Under the pieces are notes generated by a model that was not told the DNA's origin, did not search any database, and saw only the letters and a list, made by a program, of their open reading frames with translations. A stretch of 64,000 nt of DNA, taken from contig CP042428.1 in NCBI GenBank assembly GCA_024207135.1, positions 3,410,001 to 3,474,000 of the forward strand, read 5' to 3'. How positions within the stretch are numbered: position 1 is the stretch's first letter; every line of letters begins with the position of its first letter. Source of the stretch: Arthrobacter sp. C2 (GTDB taxonomy: Bacteria; Actinomycetota; Actinomycetes; Actinomycetales; Micrococcaceae). The position numbers were made by a program, and so were the translations under genes. This document shows, piece by piece, positions 4,642 through 45,079 of the stretch.

Positions 4642-7490
<2,849 letters not shown>

Positions 7491-36051: not shown

Positions 36052-36178
36052 CCCGGCGCGGCCGTCCGCTCCGGCATTAATGCCGGCCTGCGTCCTTGGC
36101 CTATCGTGTCCGTCTCGAGTCGGTTGGGCTGGCCGCGCGGGCCGGGGCGAGGTCCTGGTCGGCGATCGAGGAGGAATC

Positions 36179-36580
36179 ATGAGCGGCGTTGACTGGGATT
36201 CGGTTCCCGTGGCCGATCCGCCGCCCGGGGCGGTCGAGGTGCCAGGCATCGGCTTCGGATTCCTCGCCGTCGCCGGAATCCTCGAGTTGGGCGTGCCGGG
36301 TGCCGTGTACCGGTTGCCGCGCCAGGCCGGGGACGGGGCAGGCACCGAACGCGTCGGGGACTCCCGGGAGATCGCGACCACGCTGGCCGATGCCGGCATC
36401 CCGGGTCCGGCGGATCCGCTGGCCGACTGCTGGTTCATTCTTCCTCCCTCATCCATGCCCACGGAGGGCTTCTGGGATGCGCTGGGGGAAGCCGAACCAT
36501 TGCGCGGGCGGAACCAGACCCGGCGGGGGTGCCGCAGTGGCCTGCATGCGGCGTTGCAGGTCCTGTGCTCCAGCAGCTAA
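36179..36580 (+). CDS. hypothetical protein
   Basis: 133 residues from ATG 36179, well supported by GAGGAGG just upstream. It opens MSGVDWDSVPVADPPPGAVEVPGIG and contains a weakly hydrophobic stretch (FGFLAVAGILELGVPGAVY) and CWFILPPSSMPTEGFWDALGEAEP. I recognise no family. The C-terminal Arg/Cys-rich end looks less conserved and may be altered. Confidence 0.5.
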   Translation: MSGVDWDSVPVADPPPGAVEVPGIGFGFLAVAGILELGVPGAVYRLPRQAGDGAGTERVGDSREIATTLADAGIPGPADPLADCWFILPPSSMPTEGFWDALGEAEPLRGRNQTRRGCRSGLHAALQVLCSSS

Positions 36581-36722
36581 ACGACCGGCCAACGGGCCGT
36601 GGCTGTTGCACCGATCGCTGACTTGGCTTTTTGGCTCATGTGACGGCCGCGGCCGCGGGGTGGGCTCTTTTTCGGGGGCGCCGCGACATGTTTCGCGGGC
36701 GATGACACAAAAGGCTTGTGAG

Positions 36723-36751
36723 TTGCACCACAAGCCACCGCGCAGTAAGTT
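36723..36751 (+). promoter_or_regulatory. candidate promoter of the riboswitch-cycA transcript
   Basis: TTGCAC, 17-base spacer, TAAGTT (36746-36751). Transcription would begin near 36758, about 27 bases before the first aptamer. Confidence 0.4.
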
Positions 36752-36784
36752 ATGACTGCAATCACAAAATATCGCCGTTGACAC

Positions 36785-36977
36785 GTGGCGGGAGAGACCC
36801 GTCCGCGCCATGGACGGGCGCCGTAGGAGCAATTCCTCCCCAGGAAACTCTCAGGCCCCCGTACCGCCACGAAGAGGCGAATCTGGAAAGAAGCACGGTC
36901 TGGTCCGTGCTCACCGAAGGAGCAAGTCCCGATCCCCTTGCGGACGGGATGGAAACTCTCAGGTACGTCAACAGATT
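36785..36977 (+). ncRNA. tandem glycine riboswitch (two aptamers)
   Basis: Aptamer 1 (36785-36870) is closed by GTGGCGG/CCGCCAC and contains GGGAGAGACC, CGCCGTAGGAGCAA and GGAAACTCTCAGGC. Aptamer 2 (36880-36977) is closed by AATCTG/CAGATT and contains TGGAAAGAAGC, ACCGAAGGAGCAAGTCC and GGAAACTCTCAGGTAC. These are the conserved cores of the gcvT-type glycine riboswitch, joined by a short linker. A GC hairpin (36996-37013) and an ATTGGGGAGGA stretch able to pair with TTCCTCCAAT at 37026-37035 follow, probably the expression platform. The gene served is the amino-acid carrier cycA. Confidence 0.93.
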
Positions 36978-37033
36978 GGGGAGGATCCAAGAACAGCGCG
37001 GACCCGTCCGCGCGCGATTCGGGAGTTCCTCCA

Positions 37034-37240
37034 ATGACGCCAACCACCCACGCCACTGCCCGGTCGCCCTTTGGTGCGCCCGCCGGCCTGCCCCGTGAAT
37101 CCGCGCTGCGGTCCCGCGGGAATGCCGAGCGCCGCACCGCAGGGCACTCCTGCAAGCGCACCGGCCTGGGAATGGTTGCCTCGGAGAACAACGCGAAGTC
37201 CTTGTTCCAGGGCATCGCGCCCGTCGGCGAGAACCGTTAG
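37034..37240 (+). CDS. possible small ORF between the glycine riboswitch and cycA
   Basis: 68 codons from ATG 37034 with GGGAG eight bases upstream, mostly G/C at third positions, ending 55 bases before cycA. The product (MTPTTHATARSPFGAPAG ... ASENNAKSLFQGIAPVGENR) is basic and matches nothing I know. Its start lies in the strand that could pair with the end of aptamer 2, so glycine binding might set its translation. It could equally be leader sequence with chance coding potential. Confidence 0.35.
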   Translation: MTPTTHATARSPFGAPAGLPRESALRSRGNAERRTAGHSCKRTGLGMVASENNAKSLFQGIAPVGENR

Positions 37241-37295
37241 GGAATCGTCCATGGCACGCCACCGAAGCACCGGCACCAATCTGGAAGGCAACAGC

Positions 37296-38780
37296 ATGAG
37301 CAAGAACAGTTCCGCGCCCCACCTCGAACGTGGGCTCTCCAACCGCCACATCCAACTGATCGCGCTCGGCGGTGCCATCGGCACCGGCTTGTTCATGGGA
37401 TCCGGCAAGACCATTGCGGTGGCCGGGCCCTCGGTCATCTTCGTGTACATGATCATCGGCTTCATGCTCTTCTTCGTGATGCGCGCGATGGGCGAATTGC
37501 TGTTGAGCAACACCAACTACAAGAACTTCTCCGACTTCGCCGGGGACATTCTGGGCCCGTGGGCCGCCTTCTTCACGGGGTGGACCTACTGGTTCTGCTG
37601 GGTGGTCACCGGCATCGCGGACGTGGTGGCCATCTCCCACTACGTCGCGTTCTGGTGGAAGGACCTGCCGCTGTGGATCCCCGCCGTGGCCTGCATCCTG
37701 TTGCTCGTGGCCCTCAACCTGCCCAGCGTGAAGAACTTCGGCGAGACCGAGTTCTGGTTCGCCCTGGTCAAGATCGTCGCCATCGGCGCGCTGATCGTCG
37801 TCGGCCTGGTCATGGTCATTACCGGCTTCGAGAACAACGGGGCCACCGCCTCCTTCGCGAACCTCTGGAACGACGGCGGGATGTTCCCGACCGGCTTCAT
37901 GGGCTTCGTTGCCGGCTTCCAGATCGCCGTGTTCGCGTTCGTCGGCATCGAGCTGGTCGGTACGACCGCGGCCGAGACCAAGGACCCGGAGAAGACCCTG
38001 CCCAAGGCGATCAACTCCATTCCGATCCGCATCCTCTTCTTCTACGTCGGTGCCCTGGTCATCCTCATGGCCGTCCAGCCGTGGAAGCTGTTCAGTGCCG
38101 CGGAGTCCCCGTTCGTGGGCATGTTCGCCCTGGCCGGCCTGGCCGGCGCCGCAGGCATCGTGAACTTCGTGGTGCTCACCTCCGCGACCTCCAGTGCGAA
38201 CTCCGGCATCTACTCGACCTCCCGCATGATCCACGGCCTGGCCGAGGAGGGCGACGCCCCCAGGGGCTTTGCGAAGCTCTCCCGCACCAAGGTCCCGCGC
38301 AACGCGCTGCTGTTCTCCTGCATGTTCCTGCTCGCCGGCGTGGCGCTGCTTTACGCGGAGGGCGGCGTGGCCGAGGCGTTCACCCTGGTCACCACCATCT
38401 CGGCCCTGTGCTTCATGTTCGTCTGGTCGATCATCCTCATCAGCTACCTGGTCTACCGCAAGCGCCGCCCGCAGCTGCACGTGGCCAGCAAGTTCAAGAT
38501 GCCCGGCGGAACGTTCATGCCCTACGTGGTGCTGGCCTTCTTCGGCTTCATCCTCTGGGCACTGACCACGCAGGCTGACACCCTGGCCGCGCTGCTCTTT
38601 ACCCCGATCTGGTTCGTGGCACTGGGCATCGGCTACGCGATCCTGCGCTCCAAGCCCAAGCACGCCGAATTGCGGGCTTTGCACCAGGCCAAGGTCGCCC
38701 AGGAGCGCATGCTTGCGGCGTCGTTCAATGCCGGTGGCGCGGTGCTGGAGGCGGACGTGAAGGAGCCCGCCGCGAAGTAG
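37296..38780 (+). CDS. cycA: D-serine/D-alanine/glycine-type amino-acid transporter
   Basis: 494 residues from ATG 37296 (GGAAGG upstream). APC superfamily, AAT subfamily, 12 helices: LERGLSNRHIQLIALGGAIGTGLFMGSG, MRAMGELLLSNTNYKNFSDFAGD, FAFVGIELVGTTAAETKDPEKTLPKAIN. The length and motifs fit CycA. The tandem glycine riboswitch upstream supports glycine as a substrate or signal, though direction of control (import on or off) cannot be read from sequence. An 11-bp perfect hairpin follows the stop. Confidence 0.92.
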   Translation: MSKNSSAPHLERGLSNRHIQLIALGGAIGTGLFMGSGKTIAVAGPSVIFVYMIIGFMLFFVMRAMGELLLSNTNYKNFSDFAGDILGPWAAFFTGWTYWFCWVVTGIADVVAISHYVAFWWKDLPLWIPAVACILLLVALNLPSVKNFGETEFWFALVKIVAIGALIVVGLVMVITGFENNGATASFANLWNDGGMFPTGFMGFVAGFQIAVFAFVGIELVGTTAAETKDPEKTLPKAINSIPIRILFFYVGALVILMAVQPWKLFSAAESPFVGMFALAGLAGAAGIVNFVVLTSATSSANSGIYSTSRMIHGLAEEGDAPRGFAKLSRTKVPRNALLFSCMFLLAGVALLYAEGGVAEAFTLVTTISALCFMFVWSIILISYLVYRKRRPQLHVASKFKMPGGTFMPYVVLAFFGFILWALTTQADTLAALLFTPIWFVALGIGYAILRSKPKHAELRALHQAKVAQERMLAASFNAGGAVLEADVKEPAAK

Positions 38781-38833: not shown

Positions 38834-39697
38834 TCATGCGGCCGCGTGCCGGCCCGTGCCGGTTTCCGGGGCGGGGACGGGGTTCCAGGTCCTTCGGGTC
38901 TCGAGGTACCAGAAGTACAGGAAGAGTGCGATTTCGTACCACTCGACGAAGAAGACCGCCTGCCTGACCCCGAGCGCGGCCAACACGGCCCATGCCACCA
39001 CGCCCAGCGCCATCAGGACCAGCAGCCCCGCATAGTGGCCAGCCCGCCCGCCGCTGGTGTCGGTGTCACCAAGCCTGCTGCTGCCCAGGTGGCTGGCGAT
39101 CGCGATGCCCATGCTGGCGAGCAGAAGCAGGGCTGCGGCAAGGTGGACGCCGACGAAGTCCTTGCCTTCGATCGTCCGCCACAGCAACAGCACCAGGAAC
39201 CCCGCCAGCAGCAGCGTGCCTGCCACGGCCAGCCAACGTGTTTCCGTGCGTTGCAGCAATGAGCGCGGCGACCAGCTGCGGGTCTTCCACTCCAGCCACC
39301 CGAATGCCAGCGCCACGACCAGCACCGCAACCACGGAGACCTGGATGGATTGGATGAGCTCCCGTGCCGCGGCGGGGTCCAGGGTGCCAAGGGTCTGGCC
39401 CAGCCCGGCGGGGACGAAGGCGACGAACATCGCGTAGAAGCCGGCGAGGTTCAGCGCCTGGTCCTCCAGCGGCGGTCCCTTGTAGACCACCAGCAGCACG
39501 CCGGTGGTCACCATCATCGCCACGAACAGGTTCCTGGCCGGGCCGATGTAGTAGGAGCTGATGGAGTCCCCGATGACCCCGGTCCACCAGGCGTACAGGG
39601 CGATGGCCACCAGGAGCAGCAGCGGAATGACCAGGAGCATCAGGCGCAGGTAGCGCAGTGTGTCCCGGCCCTGGTTCTCGTCGACAGGAGTGTGCAT
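38834..39697 (-). CDS. integral membrane protein of unknown function
   Basis: 287 residues, about eight hydrophobic segments (LMLLVIPLLLLVAIALYAWW, NLFVAMMVTTGVLLVVY, WLAVAGTLLLAGFLVLLLW and others). It has a conserved-looking SISSYYIGPARNLFVAMM motif near residue 48, reminiscent of DUF998-type proteins. No signal peptide or enzymatic motif. Its 5' 219 bases are duplicated at 40462-40680, where a second copy is truncated. Ancestrally it lay directly downstream of the flavin monooxygenase gene. Confidence 0.75.
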   Translation of the reverse strand: MHTPVDENQGRDTLRYLRLMLLVIPLLLLVAIALYAWWTGVIGDSISSYYIGPARNLFVAMMVTTGVLLVVYKGPPLEDQALNLAGFYAMFVAFVPAGLGQTLGTLDPAAARELIQSIQVSVVAVLVVALAFGWLEWKTRSWSPRSLLQRTETRWLAVAGTLLLAGFLVLLLWRTIEGKDFVGVHLAAALLLLASMGIAIASHLGSSRLGDTDTSGGRAGHYAGLLVLMALGVVAWAVLAALGVRQAVFFVEWYEIALFLYFWYLETRRTWNPVPAPETGTGRHAAA

Positions 39698-39877
39698 GCC
39701 TGATTGTGCAACAGCAAATACCCTGTTGGCTAGGGCGGGGACGCGCCGGCGCGGGGCAGTTCCGCCTCGGTCCCGCGCGCTGGCGGCGGGATCAGCGCCA
39801 GCCGAGCTGGGGCGCCACCTGGGTGAGGATCGCTTCGATCACGTGGGCGTTGTACTCGACGCCGAGCTGGTTCGGGA
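39479..39877. repeat. 399-bp direct repeat, copy A
   Basis: Aligns without gaps to 40462-40860 with about 36 mismatches by hand (roughly 91% identity). It spans the 5' part of the membrane-protein gene, the intergenic region and the last ~85 bases of the flavin monooxygenase gene. The edges are sharp: CTTGTAGACC at the left and TTCGGGA at the right in both copies. Confidence 0.9.
39792..39877 (-). pseudogene. 3' fragment of the flavin monooxygenase gene
   Basis: About 28 codons (PNQLGVEYNAHVIEAILTQV..) matching the C-terminus of the intact gene at 40775-41797, with a proper stop at 39792. The rest is missing; upstream sequence belongs to the foreign insert. Confidence 0.85.
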
Positions 39878-39901
39878 TGGTTCCCTAAATAAGCGGAGCG
39901 G

Positions 39902-40393
39902 CTACTGCCGCTTGCGAAGCTGCCGCATCTCCGACTTTGGAAATCCCAAGAACTTCAGCTCATCCCATCGCGTGGCGATTGTCCTCAAGCGCTGGGAGTT
40001 GATTGCCTCGGCATTGCTGGGGTCCTTCTGCTGGTAGGCGAAAGCACCGGTGACGAAGCTGACCGCGGCGGAGACAAGAGTAGAAACGAGCGCGCCCACC
40101 GTGATGTTCGAGCTATCGCGAATGATGTCCGAGATTCCAATCTTGCCATCCTGTAACAGCCAAAAGTATCCGAGTAGACAGGCCGCGGCGAATGCGACTA
40201 GCGCGATGACAGAGAAGATTGCTGCCAGGGTTGCGCGTTTTTTGCGACCCCCTCGCACCACCTTGCGGGATAGTTTCTCGGCCGCAGCGAGCTCCTCCGC
40301 GGGTTGCTGAAGGATTTCGACACTGGGATTATTGCCAACGATTTCCATGATGGTGGAATTGACTATGTCTCTACCTGCTGAGACGTCTCGCAT
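39902..40393 (-). CDS. small two-helix membrane protein, probably horizontally acquired
   Basis: 163 residues from ATG 40393 (GGGAG eight bases upstream). The cytoplasmic head begins MRDVSAGRDIVNSTI. Two hydrophobic helices follow (about 55-77, LAAIFSVIALVAFAAACLLGYF; about 95-117, ITVGALVSTLVSAAVSFVTGAF), then a polar tail. Base composition is lower in G+C than the surroundings (53% in the first 60 bases of the ORF, hand count). The VSAGRDI-type N-terminus is reminiscent of short motifs in prokaryotic conflict-system proteins with TRADD-N/effector-associated domains; this is a resemblance, not an assignment. It is flanked by the 399-bp direct repeats. Confidence 0.7.
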   Translation of the reverse strand: MRDVSAGRDIVNSTIMEIVGNNPSVEILQQPAEELAAAEKLSRKVVRGGRKKRATLAAIFSVIALVAFAAACLLGYFWLLQDGKIGISDIIRDSSNITVGALVSTLVSAAVSFVTGAFAYQQKDPSNAEAINSQRLRTIATRWDELKFLGFPKSEMRQLRKRQ

Positions 40394-40431
40394 TCTGCTC
40401 CCGTGTGTCGTCGCGTTCGGAGGAAATCAGT

Positions 40432-40680
40432 CTATCTAGCCGTGGATTCTAGCGCCAGACTCTTGTAGACCACCAGCAGCACGCCGGTGGACACCATCAT
40501 CGCCACGAACAGGTTCCTGGCCGGGCCGAGATAGTAGGAGCTGATGGATTCCCAGATACGCCCGGTCCAACAGGCGTACCAGGCGATGGCCACCAGGAGC
40601 AGCAGGGGAATGACCAGGAGCATCAGGCGCAGGTAGCGCAGCGTGTCCCGGTCCTGGTTCTCGTCCATGGGCGTGTGCAT
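40432..40680 (-). pseudogene. truncated second copy of the membrane-protein gene
   Basis: The 82-codon reading frame repeats the first 73 residues of the gene at 38834-39697 with several substitutions (MHTPMDENQDRDTLRYL), then diverges after VVYK and stops at 40432. Only about two of eight helices remain, so it is probably non-functional. Confidence 0.8.
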
Positions 40681-40860
40681 GCCTGATTATGCATCAGCAA
40701 ATGCACTGTTGGCTAGGGCGGGGATGCGCCGGCGCGTGGGGATGCCGGCTCGGCCCCGCGCGCCGGCGGCGGGATCAGCGCCAGCCCAGTAGTGGCGCCA
40801 CGTGGGTGAGGATCGCTTCGATCACGTGGGCGTTGTACTCGACGCCGAGCTGGTTCGGGA
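40462..40860. repeat. 399-bp direct repeat, copy B
   Basis: Partner of 39479-39877, 983 bases apart. It contains the truncated membrane-protein gene, the intergenic region and the true 3' end of the flavin monooxygenase gene. Confidence 0.9.
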
Positions 40861-41797
40861 CCGTGAGCAGCAGGGTGTCCGCTGCGGCAATCGCCTCGTC
40901 CTGGGCCAGTTTCTTGGCCAGCTCGTCGGGTTCCCCGGCGTAGGACTTGCCGAAGACCGCGCGCGTCTTCGCATCGATGTTGCCGATCTGGTCGGAACTG
41001 TGGCGGTCGCGTCCGAAGTACTGCCAGTCCCGCTCTTCCGTCAGCGCGAAGATGCTGCGGCTGACCGAGACCCGCGGCTCGCGCTGGTGGCCGGCTTCCT
41101 TCCACGCTTGGCGGTAGAGCTCGATCTGCTCGGCCTGCTGGACGTGGAAGGGCTTGCCGGATTCGTCGTCCTTGAGTGTGGAGCTTTGCAGGTTCATGCC
41201 CAGCTTCGCGGCCCACACGGCCGTCGCATTGGAGCCGGAGCCCCACCAGATGCGTTCGCGCAGGCCCACCGAATGCGGTTCCACGCGCAGCAGACCTGGA
41301 GGGTTGGGGAACATCGGGTTCGGGCTCGGTTCCGCGAAGCCCTCGCCCGTGAGCACCTCGAGCAGGCGTTCGGTGTGCCGCCGGCCCATGTCCGCGTCGG
41401 ACTCGCCGTCGGCGGGGGAGAAGCCGAAGTGGCGCCACCCGTCGATGACCTGCTCGGGCGAACCACGGCTAATGCCCAGCTGCAGCCGTCCGCCCGAGAT
41501 CAGGTCGGCGGCGCCGGCATCCTCCGCCATGTAAAGCGGGTTCTCGTAGCGCATGTCGATCACCCCGGTGCCGATCTCGATGCGGCTGGTCCGCGCCCCG
41601 ATCGCGGCGAGCAGGGGAAACGGGGACGCGTGCTGCGCGGCGAAGTGGTGGACGCGGAAGTAGGCGCCGTCCGCGCCGAGCTCCTCGGCCGCCACCGCGA
41701 GGTCGATGGCCTGCAGCAGCGCGTCGGACGCATTTCGCGTGGCCGAGGACGGGTGGTCGGTCCAGTGGCCGAATGACAAAAATCCGATGTTCTTCAC
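40775..41797 (-). CDS. LLM-class flavin-dependent monooxygenase
   Basis: 340 residues from GTG 41797, giving the family-typical opening MKNIGFLSFGHW. Bacterial-luciferase-like TIM barrel: EELGADGAYFRVHHF, SRIEIGTGVIDMRYENPLYMAEDAGAADLISGGRLQLGISRGS, ERIWWGSGSNATAVWAAKLGMN. It uses reduced flavin (FMNH2 or F420H2) to oxidise an unknown substrate. It lies 45 bases downstream of the cysteine-synthase-like gene, same strand, possibly in one transcript. Its last ~85 bases are duplicated at 39792-39877. Confidence 0.9.
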   Translation of the reverse strand: MKNIGFLSFGHWTDHPSSATRNASDALLQAIDLAVAAEELGADGAYFRVHHFAAQHASPFPLLAAIGARTSRIEIGTGVIDMRYENPLYMAEDAGAADLISGGRLQLGISRGSPEQVIDGWRHFGFSPADGESDADMGRRHTERLLEVLTGEGFAEPSPNPMFPNPPGLLRVEPHSVGLRERIWWGSGSNATAVWAAKLGMNLQSSTLKDDESGKPFHVQQAEQIELYRQAWKEAGHQREPRVSVSRSIFALTEERDWQYFGRDRHSSDQIGNIDAKTRAVFGKSYAGEPDELAKKLAQDEAIAAADTLLLTVPNQLGVEYNAHVIEAILTHVAPLLGWR

Positions 41798-41842
41798 AAC
41801 GGTGGCCAACGCGCCGGGGGCGGATCGTATTCCACCCGGGGT

Positions 41843-42802
41843 CTACAGGGCGGCTCCGGGTTCAAAGAGGTCGCCGGCCAGGTATTTCAGTCCGGTGTCG
41901 CAGGTGACGGTCGCAACGGTGTGCCCTGGCCCAAGCTCCGCGGCGAGCCGGAGGGCGCCGGCGATATTCAGGGCGCTTGACGTGCCCGCGAAGATGCCCT
42001 CCCTGCGGGCGAGCGGCAGTGCCAAGCTCCTGGCGTCTTCCTCATCGATGGCAAGCACCCGGTCGTAGAGGCCGCGGGCGAGCAACGGCGGGACGATGCC
42101 CGTCGCAATGCCTTCAACATGGTGGGGTCCGGCGTGCCCGGCGCTGAGCATCGGGGACGCCGTGGGTTCCAGGGCGGTGATGGTGGCATCCGGGGCGTGC
42201 ACTTTCAGAGTTCGGGAAACCCCCGCCAACAGGCCCGCGGTGCCGACCGCGGCGCAAAACGCGTCCACGGCCACCCCGTCGTGGCGCGTCTGCCGCAGCA
42301 GCTCCAGCGCGAGCTCGTCGTAGCCGGCCAGGGCGTCCGTGTTGTGGAATTGGTCGGTCCAGTAGGCGTTTTCGTCGATCACGATGCGCTTCAGGACCTC
42401 GCGCATGCGGTCGAACAGTTCCGGGGTGATCAGGCCGTTGTCGCTGGGCACGACCACCACCTCGGCGCCGAACGCGCGCATGGTGCGCAGCTTCTCCTGC
42501 GAAAAGGTGTCCGAGCTGACGATGGTGCACGGGTAGCCCTTGACCGCGCACACGTAGGCCAGGGAAGAGCCGGTGCTGCCGCCGGAATATTCCACGACCC
42601 GTTGTCCCGGTCTGAGGTCCCCGCGCCGCTCGGCTTCCGAAATGATCGCCAGGGCCATGCGGTCCTTGTAGCTGCCGGTCGGGTTCCCGGCCTCGATCTT
42701 GACAATCACCTCGGCGGATCCGGGTGGCACGAGGTGCTGCAGCCGCACCACCGGGGTGTTGCCGATGGTGGCCAGGGTGGAGCTGGAGATCCCGGTGCTC
42801 AT
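41843..42802 (-). CDS. PLP-dependent cysteine-synthase-family enzyme
   Basis: 319 residues of fold-type II: ATIGNTPVVRLQHL, the PLP lysine in NPTGSYKDRMAL, the substrate loop EYSGGSTGSSLAYV, the phosphate-binding glycines in AAVGTAGLLAGVSRTLK, and GIFAGTSSALNIAGAL. It departs from housekeeping CysK in the substrate loop (GGSTGSS rather than TSGNTG), so another beta-replacement or lyase reaction is likely. It overlaps the ketopantoate-reductase-like gene by four bases (ATGA). Confidence 0.88.
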   Translation of the reverse strand: MSTGISSSTLATIGNTPVVRLQHLVPPGSAEVIVKIEAGNPTGSYKDRMALAIISEAERRGDLRPGQRVVEYSGGSTGSSLAYVCAVKGYPCTIVSSDTFSQEKLRTMRAFGAEVVVVPSDNGLITPELFDRMREVLKRIVIDENAYWTDQFHNTDALAGYDELALELLRQTRHDGVAVDAFCAAVGTAGLLAGVSRTLKVHAPDATITALEPTASPMLSAGHAGPHHVEGIATGIVPPLLARGLYDRVLAIDEEDARSLALPLARREGIFAGTSSALNIAGALRLAAELGPGHTVATVTCDTGLKYLAGDLFEPGAAL

Positions 42803-43740
42803 GCCGAAGCCTCCTGCGCCGAGGCATGGGCCCGGGCCGCTGCCCGGTGATGCGTGCGCAGCTGGAGCAGGGCCGCATCCAGCAGCGGCGCGGAGACACC
42901 GAGGGTACTGGCGCGGGCGGCGAGGTCGCCCAGGATGTGCTCGGCCTCAAGCGGATCGCCATGCTCCAGGTCCCGATAGAGCGACGAGGTGAAGCCGGAA
43001 CCCGGTTCGGTGAGCAACGCCAGCGACTGGGCGTGGCCCGGCCCGCTGACCGGATGGCCGGAGGCGGCGGCGACCTGCTCGCATTCGTCGATGGCGTCCA
43101 ATATCGACGTTTCGCCTCCGGCGGCCAGGATGTCGCCAACGGTTCCGCGGAACAGGCACGTGATCACGCCGGCAGCGGCGATGAACACCCACTTCTCCCA
43201 GAGCCTGGCGGTGATGTCGTCAGCGACCTGCAGGCCGATCCCGGCCGTGTCGAGGGCCCGGACGATCTGCTCCGGGACGGTGCCGCCGCGGGGGTCCCCG
43301 ATCGACAGGGTGCTCAGTTCGGTCATCTGCACGACGGTTGAATCCTCGTCGAGAGTCGCCACGATCTTCACCAGGCCCCCGAGCACCTGGCCCGGGAACG
43401 CATCTTCCAAGGCCTCCAGGTGGGCCATTCCGTTGAGCAGCGGCAGGAGGCGGGTGCCCGGCCCGACCGCGGGTTTCAGCGCGGGGATGACCGCGGGCAA
43501 TGCAGGTGCCTTGACGGCGAGCACGACGAGGTCGAAGGGCGCACTGTCGGCCAGGTCGGTCACGGCGCGCACGCGGTGCCTGGTGGCGGTATCCGGGGCG
43601 CGGAAGCGAAGCCCGTTTTCACGGAGCTCGGCGGCGCGTCGCTCGCGGACGAGGAACGTCACGTCTTGTCCGGCGTCGAGCAGTCGCGCCCCGAGGGCAC
43701 CGCCCGTCGCGCCGGCTCCGACGATGAGTATGCGGGTCAT
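42799..43740 (-). CDS. ketopantoate reductase (ApbA/PanE)-family dehydrogenase
   Basis: 313 residues from ATG 43740 (AAAGGAA upstream). The NAD(P)H fold is RILIVGAGATGGALGARLLDAG; LLPLLNGMAHLEAL and the catalytic-lysine region KWVFIAAAGVITCL match the ApbA N- and C-domains (TSSLYRDLEHGDPLEAEHILGDL). It may reduce a 2-oxo acid other than ketopantoate, because its neighbours are a PLP enzyme (overlapping stop/start) and a LysE exporter, not panBC. Confidence 0.88.
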   Translation of the reverse strand: MTRILIVGAGATGGALGARLLDAGQDVTFLVRERRAAELRENGLRFRAPDTATRHRVRAVTDLADSAPFDLVVLAVKAPALPAVIPALKPAVGPGTRLLPLLNGMAHLEALEDAFPGQVLGGLVKIVATLDEDSTVVQMTELSTLSIGDPRGGTVPEQIVRALDTAGIGLQVADDITARLWEKWVFIAAAGVITCLFRGTVGDILAAGGETSILDAIDECEQVAAASGHPVSGPGHAQSLALLTEPGSGFTSSLYRDLEHGDPLEAEHILGDLAARASTLGVSAPLLDAALLQLRTHHRAAARAHASAQEASA

Positions 43741-43823
43741 GGTGGCCTTGTTCCTTTCGCGGGACCGGGAGGGACCCGGTCCGCCCTTGTCGAATGATGC
43801 GGCATGAGGTGTGGCTGGCAGTC

Positions 43824-44459
43824 TCACGAACCGATTCCGGCCAGGTCGGTCATGGTGGTCGCGAGCAGTCCCGCGCCGATGGCCAGCAACACCACGCCGC
43901 CGAGCAGCGTGACGACGCGATCCGCGGTCGGCGACCGGTGGAAGCCGAAGATGCGCACCAGGGCGATGGCCGCGGACCACCACAATCCGGCGCCGATGAC
44001 AACGCTCGCGCACAGCACGAGTGTACGCAGATCCGCGTCGTCGCCGCGCCCGATGAACTGGGGCAGGACCGCGGCGAAGAACAGCAGCGCCTTCGGATTC
44101 GTGGCATTTGTGGCGAATCCGCGGGCATACCCGCCCCTTGTTGCGGGTTTCGCGGCGGACGGGGCCCGGGCATCCGCCCGGCGGGAGCGGAGCATCGCCG
44201 TCCCCATCCACAGCAGCACGCCGGCACCGAGCAGCTGCACGAGACTCAGCGCACCGGGCTTGGCCGCCAGCAGGGCGGTCGCCCCGGCGACGGCGAGCAC
44301 CGCGTGCAGCGCCAGTCCGGTGACGACGCCCGCCGCCGTCGAGGCGCCCTCCCGCACACCGCGGGTCGCCGACTGCACCACGAGAACGAGGTCGGGGCCC
44401 GGCACGGCCAGGGCCACCAGCAGCGCGAGAATGAACGTCATCCAGGTTTCCACGCCCAT
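43824..44459 (-). CDS. LysE/RhtB-family amino-acid exporter
   Basis: 211 residues from ATG 44459 (GGGAGG upstream), six helices. Motifs MTFILALLVALAVPGPDLVLVVQSATRGVREG and FATNATNPKALLFFAAVLPQF are standard for LysE/RhtB exporters. It is transcribed divergently from an Lrp-type regulator 63 bases away, the classic exporter-regulator pairing. Downstream genes on the same strand may supply or remove the exported amino acid. Confidence 0.92.
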   Translation of the reverse strand: MGVETWMTFILALLVALAVPGPDLVLVVQSATRGVREGASTAAGVVTGLALHAVLAVAGATALLAAKPGALSLVQLLGAGVLLWMGTAMLRSRRADARAPSAAKPATRGGYARGFATNATNPKALLFFAAVLPQFIGRGDDADLRTLVLCASVVIGAGLWWSAAIALVRIFGFHRSPTADRVVTLLGGVVLLAIGAGLLATTMTDLAGIGS

Positions 44460-44510
44460 GAGCACCTCCCTGTCATCGAGCAATGAACCCACTGTAAACA
44501 GGTGATTCGC

Positions 44511-44522
44511 TAGACTCGGGCC
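44511..44522 (+). promoter_or_regulatory. -10 box directly before the Lrp-type gene
   Basis: TAGACT followed by six bases (CGGGCC) and the ATG, consistent with a leaderless transcript. The same TAGACTCGGG..ATG arrangement occurs at 50758-50770. Confidence 0.6.
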
Positions 44523-45035
44523 ATGGACGAATTGACGAGGAAATTGAATCGGATCCCCGAACTTGATGCGGTTGATTGGGCAATCCTCGAATTGCTGCAG
44601 GTTGATGCGACCATGCCGAACAAGGACATCGCGGCCCGGGTCGGTGTGGCTCCGAGCACCGCCCTGGAGCGGATCCGGCGCATGCGGCGCAATGGCACCA
44701 TCGTCGCCACCCGGGCCCACGTGCTCCCGAGCCTGCTCGGGCGGGGAGAGCAGGCGTTCCTGGGCATCCAGATCCGTCCGCATGCCCGCGACACGGCCAA
44801 CGACTTCGTCCAGAAAGCCCTCGCGCTGCCCGAGACCCTTGCGCTGTACAACGTCAGCGGTTCCGAGGATTACCTGCTCCACGTCGCGGTGGCCAACAGC
44901 ACCGAACTACAGAACCTCATCATCGACAAGATCCTCGCCCTGCCCCAGGTCGCGCATTGCCGAACCCAACTCATCTTCGGTGAGCCGTGGGTTGCCCCGT
45001 TGCGCCGCCGCCCGGCACGGGCGACGGAGGACTGA
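44523..45035 (+). CDS. Lrp/AsnC-family regulator
   Basis: 170 residues. The N-terminal HTH is AVDWAILELLQVDATMPNKDIAARVGVAPSTALERIRRMR; the C-terminal RAM domain is AFLGIQIRPHARDTANDFV ... LYNVSGSEDYLLHVAVANSTELQNLI. It probably controls the divergent LysE gene in response to an amino acid. Start chosen at ATG 44523, where a TAGACT -10 box ends six bases upstream. Confidence 0.92.
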   Translation: MDELTRKLNRIPELDAVDWAILELLQVDATMPNKDIAARVGVAPSTALERIRRMRRNGTIVATRAHVLPSLLGRGEQAFLGIQIRPHARDTANDFVQKALALPETLALYNVSGSEDYLLHVAVANSTELQNLIIDKILALPQVAHCRTQLIFGEPWVAPLRRRPARATED

Positions 45036-45079
45036 AGGGGAGGGCCTGCCGGCACAAATGCGGTGCGCCCCGCGGGGGC

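Follow-up and report, generated by a model that had tools for sequence, protein, structure and literature searches.

The window, the whole 64-kb stretch of DNA analyzed here, contains on its minus strand an intact gene for an LLM-class flavin-dependent monooxygenase (LLM) and, downstream of it, gene1, an ORF that had no Pfam or NCBIfam family above cut-off, was present in 26 of 295 family genomes, and whose product showed 96.5% amino acid identity to that of the relative G010. Both copies of a direct repeat cross the junction between these two genes (Table 1). Self-alignment gave two gap-free copies of 399 bp, A and B, at an offset of 983 bp and with 36 mismatches (90.98% identity), as the preliminary description of this DNA had it (two gap-free copies, about 91% identical, spanning the same junction); the BLAST alignment was 14 bp longer at its gene1 end (39465/40448), giving 413 bp at 90.1%. 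Copy B includes the first 73 codons of gene1, and copy A the last 27 codons and stop of LLM, a remnant first given as 28 codons. Read along the minus strand, the order is LLM, intergenic region, first 73 codons of gene1, a 163-aa gene, last 27 codons of LLM, intergenic region and whole gene1. The 584-bp spacer between the copies has a G+C content of 0.562, compared with 0.665 for the window, consistent with the low-G+C insert reported initially.

Table 1. Features of the repeated LLM-gene1 junction (positions in the window).
Feature	Position	Strand	Description
gene1	38834..39697	-	Intact ORF, 287 aa, no family; probably native downstream neighbour of LLM; membrane-type by eye
Copy A	39479..39877	-	Probably native LLM 3' remnant and intergenic region, with gene1 5' part; groups with G010
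Displaced, probably native LLM 3' end	39792..39877	-	27 codons and stop, 86 bp; from self-comparison
Cargo segment	39878..40461	-	584 bp, 56% G+C
Cargo ORF	39902..40393	-	163 aa, orphan
Terminator-like hairpin, end of cargo ORF	39897..39912	-	z -2.38
Copy B	40462..40860	-	Probably non-native LLM 3' end, with intergenic region and gene1 5' fragment
gene1 5' fragment in copy B	40462..40680	-	73 codons; ORF 40432-40680, 82 aa
Probably non-native LLM 3' end of the intact gene	40775..40860	-	27 codons and stop
LLM-class flavin-dependent monooxygenase gene	40775..41809	-	344 aa, intact; Pfam Bac_luciferase 1.6e-27

At E <= 1e-4, self-comparison of the whole window identified A/B as the sole direct repeat whose copies are separated by less than 4 kb. 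The genome (G000) is one contig of 4,555,954 bp in which the 3.2-kb region is present once, plus two short paralogous matches, and a collapsed repeat is therefore an unlikely artefact, as judged from the assembly alone. LLM also matched G000:C1:4302998-4303878 with 89% identity over 38 bp, which is the conserved tail block at the DNA level and suggests an LLM paralogue with this block in the same genome.

The cargo segment consists of one 163-aa ORF with a terminator-like hairpin at the ORF end. The ORF had no family above the curated cut-off in Pfam or NCBIfam, no PADLOC family and no match in phages or plasmids, and its protein had no relative in viral contigs. All matches of the protein were weak (G019, G144, G279 and nine order-level genomes, E<=0.01) and lay mostly inside longer frames. 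Hydrophobic stretches, judged by eye, suggest two membrane spans. An NCBIfam match to a chlamydial membrane protein (19 bits against a cut-off of 100) was taken as chance. We also observed a weak, sub-threshold Pfam match (E 0.87) to the two-membrane-span domain of cyanobacterial TRADD-N-associated proteins, which is no evidence when taken alone. With a single ORF that has no transposase match, and no flanking inverted repeat, the insert was rejected as an insertion sequence or transposon.

Comparison with G010 suggests which copy belongs to this strain. Over the LLM end, identity to G010 was 95.5% for copy A and 92.1% for copy B, and over the gene1 side it was 93.6% and 87.6%, respectively. 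In a tree built from the LLM end, the upstream stretch and the gene1 start together (361 columns, 7 rows), copy A grouped with G010 (support 93/89), and forcing an A+B clade cost 8.1 log units (p-AU 0.0375; 0.023 with an earlier alignment in which one row was judged misaligned upstream). A single group of A, B and G010 was not rejected (p-AU 0.505), and copy B had no well-supported sister in the tree. At the five LLM-tail sites that differ between the copies, A had the G010 base at four and B at one. The remnant tail differed from G010 at 3 positions and the intact tail at 6, a difference that, with so few sites, is not significant alone. Since A groups with G010 and the A+B clade is disfavoured, the native copy appears to be A and the foreign one B. 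The remnant in copy A is most likely this strain's own LLM end, and the intact LLM gene would finish in non-native sequence.

The separate phylogeny of the copies proposed in the preliminary description thus did not group them as this strain's own recent paralogues, and a recent tandem duplication is disfavoured, in line with the original view that they are not simple recent duplicates. The accompanying idea that copy B and the insert arrived together from another lineage is plausible on the same grounds. That description also recognized a truncated gene and a remnant, which the anatomy bears out; it left out that the intact LLM gene itself probably has a non-native 3' end and that the native one is displaced in copy A.

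The exchanged stretch may be the end of LLM alone or much more of the gene. The intact LLM differed from G010 at 59 of 949 sites in its body and at 6 of 86 in its tail (p 0.82), i.e., with equal divergence. No significant change-point was found in the window's LLM (54 of 300 permutations), and LLM identity profiles were not clean, partly through a divergent patch of G010's own at 40880-40947. The first 58 bp of the non-native end (40803-40860) are identical to copy A, and differences start at tail position 59. Changes found in the gene1 fragment of copy B alone include W to C and G to W, which suggests decay since arrival.

The same locus was compared in relatives. In G001, LLM is directly followed by gene1 with a clean junction, and loss of the cargo as an event was not seen among relatives. 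In G010, a hemerythrin-domain gene, common to G003, lies between LLM and gene1. The history at this locus is more tangled than one step, because G003 and G010 have this common cargo here and the window's genome had no match to their hemerythrin protein in a search run without a positive control. In G003, a fragment resembling the end of an APC-type transporter gene (named by eye) was observed beside the hemerythrin-type cargo. Most of an APC-type transporter gene (also named by eye) is located at 36150-38130 of the window, a stretch absent from G010. The gene1 of G003 (L037, ~5103-5970) contains an in-frame TGA and a frame change and looks like a pseudogene. In G009 and G014, LLM is followed by a lumazine-synthase gene and then by a longer decayed LLM piece. 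Among members of G644's genus, the gene after LLM is often lumazine synthase, and G564, G635, G609 and G668 have gene1 farther downstream; lumazine synthase may thus be an old neighbour of LLM and not cargo. LLM and the next gene are uninterrupted in G644, G501 and G618.

On the other side of LLM, ~3.26 kb directly 5' of the gene (41817-45076) had no match in the compared stretches of G010, G001, G003, G007, G009 and G014, and LLM is thus flanked on both sides by strain-specific DNA. This stretch contains a cysteine-synthase-like gene (below cut-off) and, by eye, ketopantoate-reductase-like and LysE-like genes. It is possible that it and the downstream insert came from one import.

The LLM 3' end was matched in 199 of 290 family genomes. 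We surveyed 44 loci, i.e., the 37 best-scoring among the matches listed, six others and that of the window; four of the 44 may be paralogues (G594, G575, G631 and G572, 58-77% amino acid identity), and the downstream stretches were short in two (G536 and G497). BLAST (E<=1e-4) detected displaced LLM 3' pieces at seven of the 44 loci (G000, G518, G536, G476, G031, G009 and G014), and a tail profile added G520 and G609, giving nine. A tenth case, G026, came from outside the 44 loci and was included because other searches pointed to it. In G594, a 19-bp match to LLM downstream of the gene (E 0.003) was left out of the count, since an inverted match of 21 bp in that stretch scored an equal E. As a loose control, not size-matched to the LLM test, other local direct repeats of at least 40 bp were found in 4 of 42 five-kb downstream stretches besides that of the window. 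In a class sample of 163 genomes, the tail was matched in 18 besides the window, in one place each (nearly the whole tail in 15, part of it in 3).

Different genes lie between LLM and its remnant. They include alpha/beta hydrolases in G518 and G026 and a mycothiol maleylpyruvate isomerase-like gene in G520, of which G031 has a relative; this related cargo just after LLM in two genera had 73% DNA identity. In G609 (L134), an AbiD-type abortive-infection gene (Pfam Abi_2 1.9e-46, PADLOC AbiD 3e-54) is located between LLM and a decayed remnant. The cargo of G476 has several genes, including ParD/ParE, and may be native there, since similar DNA lies near LLM in G034 and G518. In G536, 154 bp separate LLM from the remnant, with no ORF of 80 aa listed. 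By offset, unit sizes were 245-2565 bp, mostly near 1 kb. Taken together, the LLM gene end looks like a spot of repeated small-cargo capture. No published description of this insertion site was found among the matches listed (including the best 6 of 140), with most subscription journals outside the scope of the search.

We defined the joint as the start of similarity between a remnant and the intact LLM of the same genome, counted from the gene end. It is at 86 bp in G000 (position 39877 of the window, the 5' edge of the displaced end) and in G518, at 87 bp in G476, where it is ragged, and in G536 at 87 bp to the first mismatch or 91 bp by BLAST. Thus, the cargo-remnant joints of four genomes, from three genera, lie within 1-5 bp of a single base and are preceded by unrelated sequence. 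The remnants of G520 (decayed) and G026 (in which the intact tail is divergent) begin at the same profile position. The joints of G609, G009 and G014 differ, and G031 is too decayed to place. We simulated chance placement of nine events, with windows chosen after seeing the data. At least four joints fell in a 7-bp window in 0.4% of draws for a span of 300 bp and in 5.4% for a span of 120 bp, and in a 3-bp window in 0.03% and 0.4%, respectively; for at least six joints in 7 bp, the values were 3e-6 and 2e-4. The codon in which the joint falls opens a strongly conserved block, VPNQLG, and this conservation can bias the two cases placed by profile (G520 and G026). The clustering of joints is likely, though not beyond doubt.

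We also compared remnants and intact tails with relatives in other genomes. In G536, the remnant had 5 differences from G644 in 86 positions, none of them in the last 54 bp, and the intact tail had 11, nine of them from position 59 on (5 versus 11, p 0.19). LLM of G536 is mosaic relative to that of G644, with 1 difference in the first 254 bases and 97 in the next 766; the mosaic seems to belong to G644, since G644 is close to G676 in that mid-gene stretch. The LLM gene of G644 (L107) itself looks mosaic, resembling G536 over its first 250 bases and G676 at mid-gene, which is a sign that species exchange this gene. In G518, the remnant had 6 and the intact tail 4 differences from G034, giving no support for a native remnant. 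In G026, the intact tail is by eye the odd one out and the remnant is family-like.

We favour, with a probability of roughly 0.55, a homology-anchored insertion in LLM with a preferred second joint. Donor DNA from a related lineage would have comprised at least the LLM 3' end, the intergenic region, the first 73 codons of gene1 and the 163-aa gene. On one side it would have recombined through the conserved LLM gene; on the other, the junction would lie within the recipient's own LLM, 86 bp short of the gene end. The intact LLM would then end in donor sequence, with the native end and native gene1 pushed downstream. Similar insertions with other cargo would have occurred at LLM in other genera, several with nearly the same second joint. 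A donor with the same LLM-gene1 order would explain why the repeat here extends to 399 bp, when elsewhere it is the bare ~86-bp end. We infer both the exchange through LLM and a single import of copy B with the cargo. As in homology-facilitated illegitimate recombination, anchor homology is present, namely the LLM end and the junction common to copies A and B, and anchored recombination accounts for a gene that is whole but finishes in non-native sequence, for its displaced native end and for the cargo in between. The homology-facilitated capture put forward in the preliminary description, a reading that was largely right, is the core of this explanation; recurrence (nine of 44 loci and G026) and the clustered joints were missing from it.

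Anchored recombination alone does not predict a clustered second joint, whereas a site-specific cassette would. In such a scheme, a recombinase or nuclease supplied in trans would insert, at one base, a unit that starts with its own copy of the last 27 LLM codons. Because the LLM divergence and change-point tests fail to place the start of donor DNA at the tail, we keep such a fixed-site unit as a possible, if rather doubtful, alternative. It would fit the four tight joints preceded by unrelated sequence and the two more placed by profile, as well as the differing cargo and the small units. On the other hand, the 983-bp unit has no recombinase, and of the three tyrosine recombinases in the host, one is XerD-like (over cut-off), one XerC-like (below cut-off) and the third looks rearranged. 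Serine recombinases were found in each of the 16 genomes tried, whether an insert was there or not, the joint has no symmetric core (130 of 300 random stretches were as good), and the divergent joints of G609 and G009/G014 do not fit a single site. No carrier was detected in phages, or in viral contigs by one pattern. More generally, no cognate integrase was found in the unit or identified among host recombinases, phages, plasmids, viral contigs or the genomes tried. The tail was present in 81 plasmid records, in one place each. A phage attachment site was rejected: 50,697 phage records had no tail match, and one degenerate pattern had no exact hit among viral contigs. Only tentatively, then, could the LLM 3' end be regarded as the place where, in Micrococcaceae, a previously undescribed kind of cassette without a recombinase docks; such ~1-kb, mostly single-gene units, starting with a copy of the last 27 codons of LLM, would enter at one base, replace the C-terminus of the enzyme, displace the old one and move accessory genes (one of them for phage defence) between genera.

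Plain homology-facilitated illegitimate recombination, i.e., independent accidents with a random second joint and clustering by chance or detection bias, is unlikely. It agrees with the different joints in G609 and G009/G014 and with the 5.4% of draws at the 120-bp span, but two joints are identical and two within 1-5 bp, in three genera, a wider span lowers the chance, and longer remnants are detectable, as G609 and G009/G014 show. Highly improbable is an old tandem duplication before the G010 split, with cargo at the new joint and later loss of a copy in G010 by repeat recombination: the A+B+G010 group was not rejected, and a deletion of this kind would produce the A-type LLM end that G010 has, but extra losses are needed, different cargo occupies the spot in G010 and G003, and similar structures in other genera are left unexplained.

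Should further genomes show the same clustering of the joint, a single conserved metabolic gene would act, across genera and in the absence of a resident integrase, as a landing place for small accessory genes, and the entry of very small variable segments would be testable at one locus. The locus also cautions against taking the intact copy of a core gene for the native one by default.

Among known systems, CIMEs are recombinase-less derivatives of integrative elements at gene 3' ends. As with such elements, the LLM gene is whole with a supplied 3' end, the probable native 3' end lies at the far side, cargo is variable and the locus recurrent. In contrast to them, neither the 983-bp unit nor the cargo ORFs looked up (those of G476 only in part) encode an integrase, there is no symmetric core, and the units are mostly near 1 kb. 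Integron gene cassettes and Acinetobacter dif modules, the latter with XerC/XerD sites at their ends, likewise have small, mostly single-gene cargo without its own recombinase, and here too a defence gene is among the cargo. In both of those systems, unlike here, the common end is not coding sequence of the target gene; in addition, no integron integrase was over cut-off among the host tyrosine recombinases, and the joint has no symmetry. Vibrio T6SS immunity arrays and Rhs 3' ends resemble this locus in having a conserved anchor, a new 3' part with cargo and an old 3' part displaced downstream, and displaced immunity genes in Vibrio were explained by the same idea of anchored recombination (PMC5361080). 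Compared with these homology-facilitated displacement arrays, the gene here is for a luciferase-like monooxygenase rather than a toxin, the 27 residues specified by the new end and by the old one are almost identical, and several of the second joints cluster.
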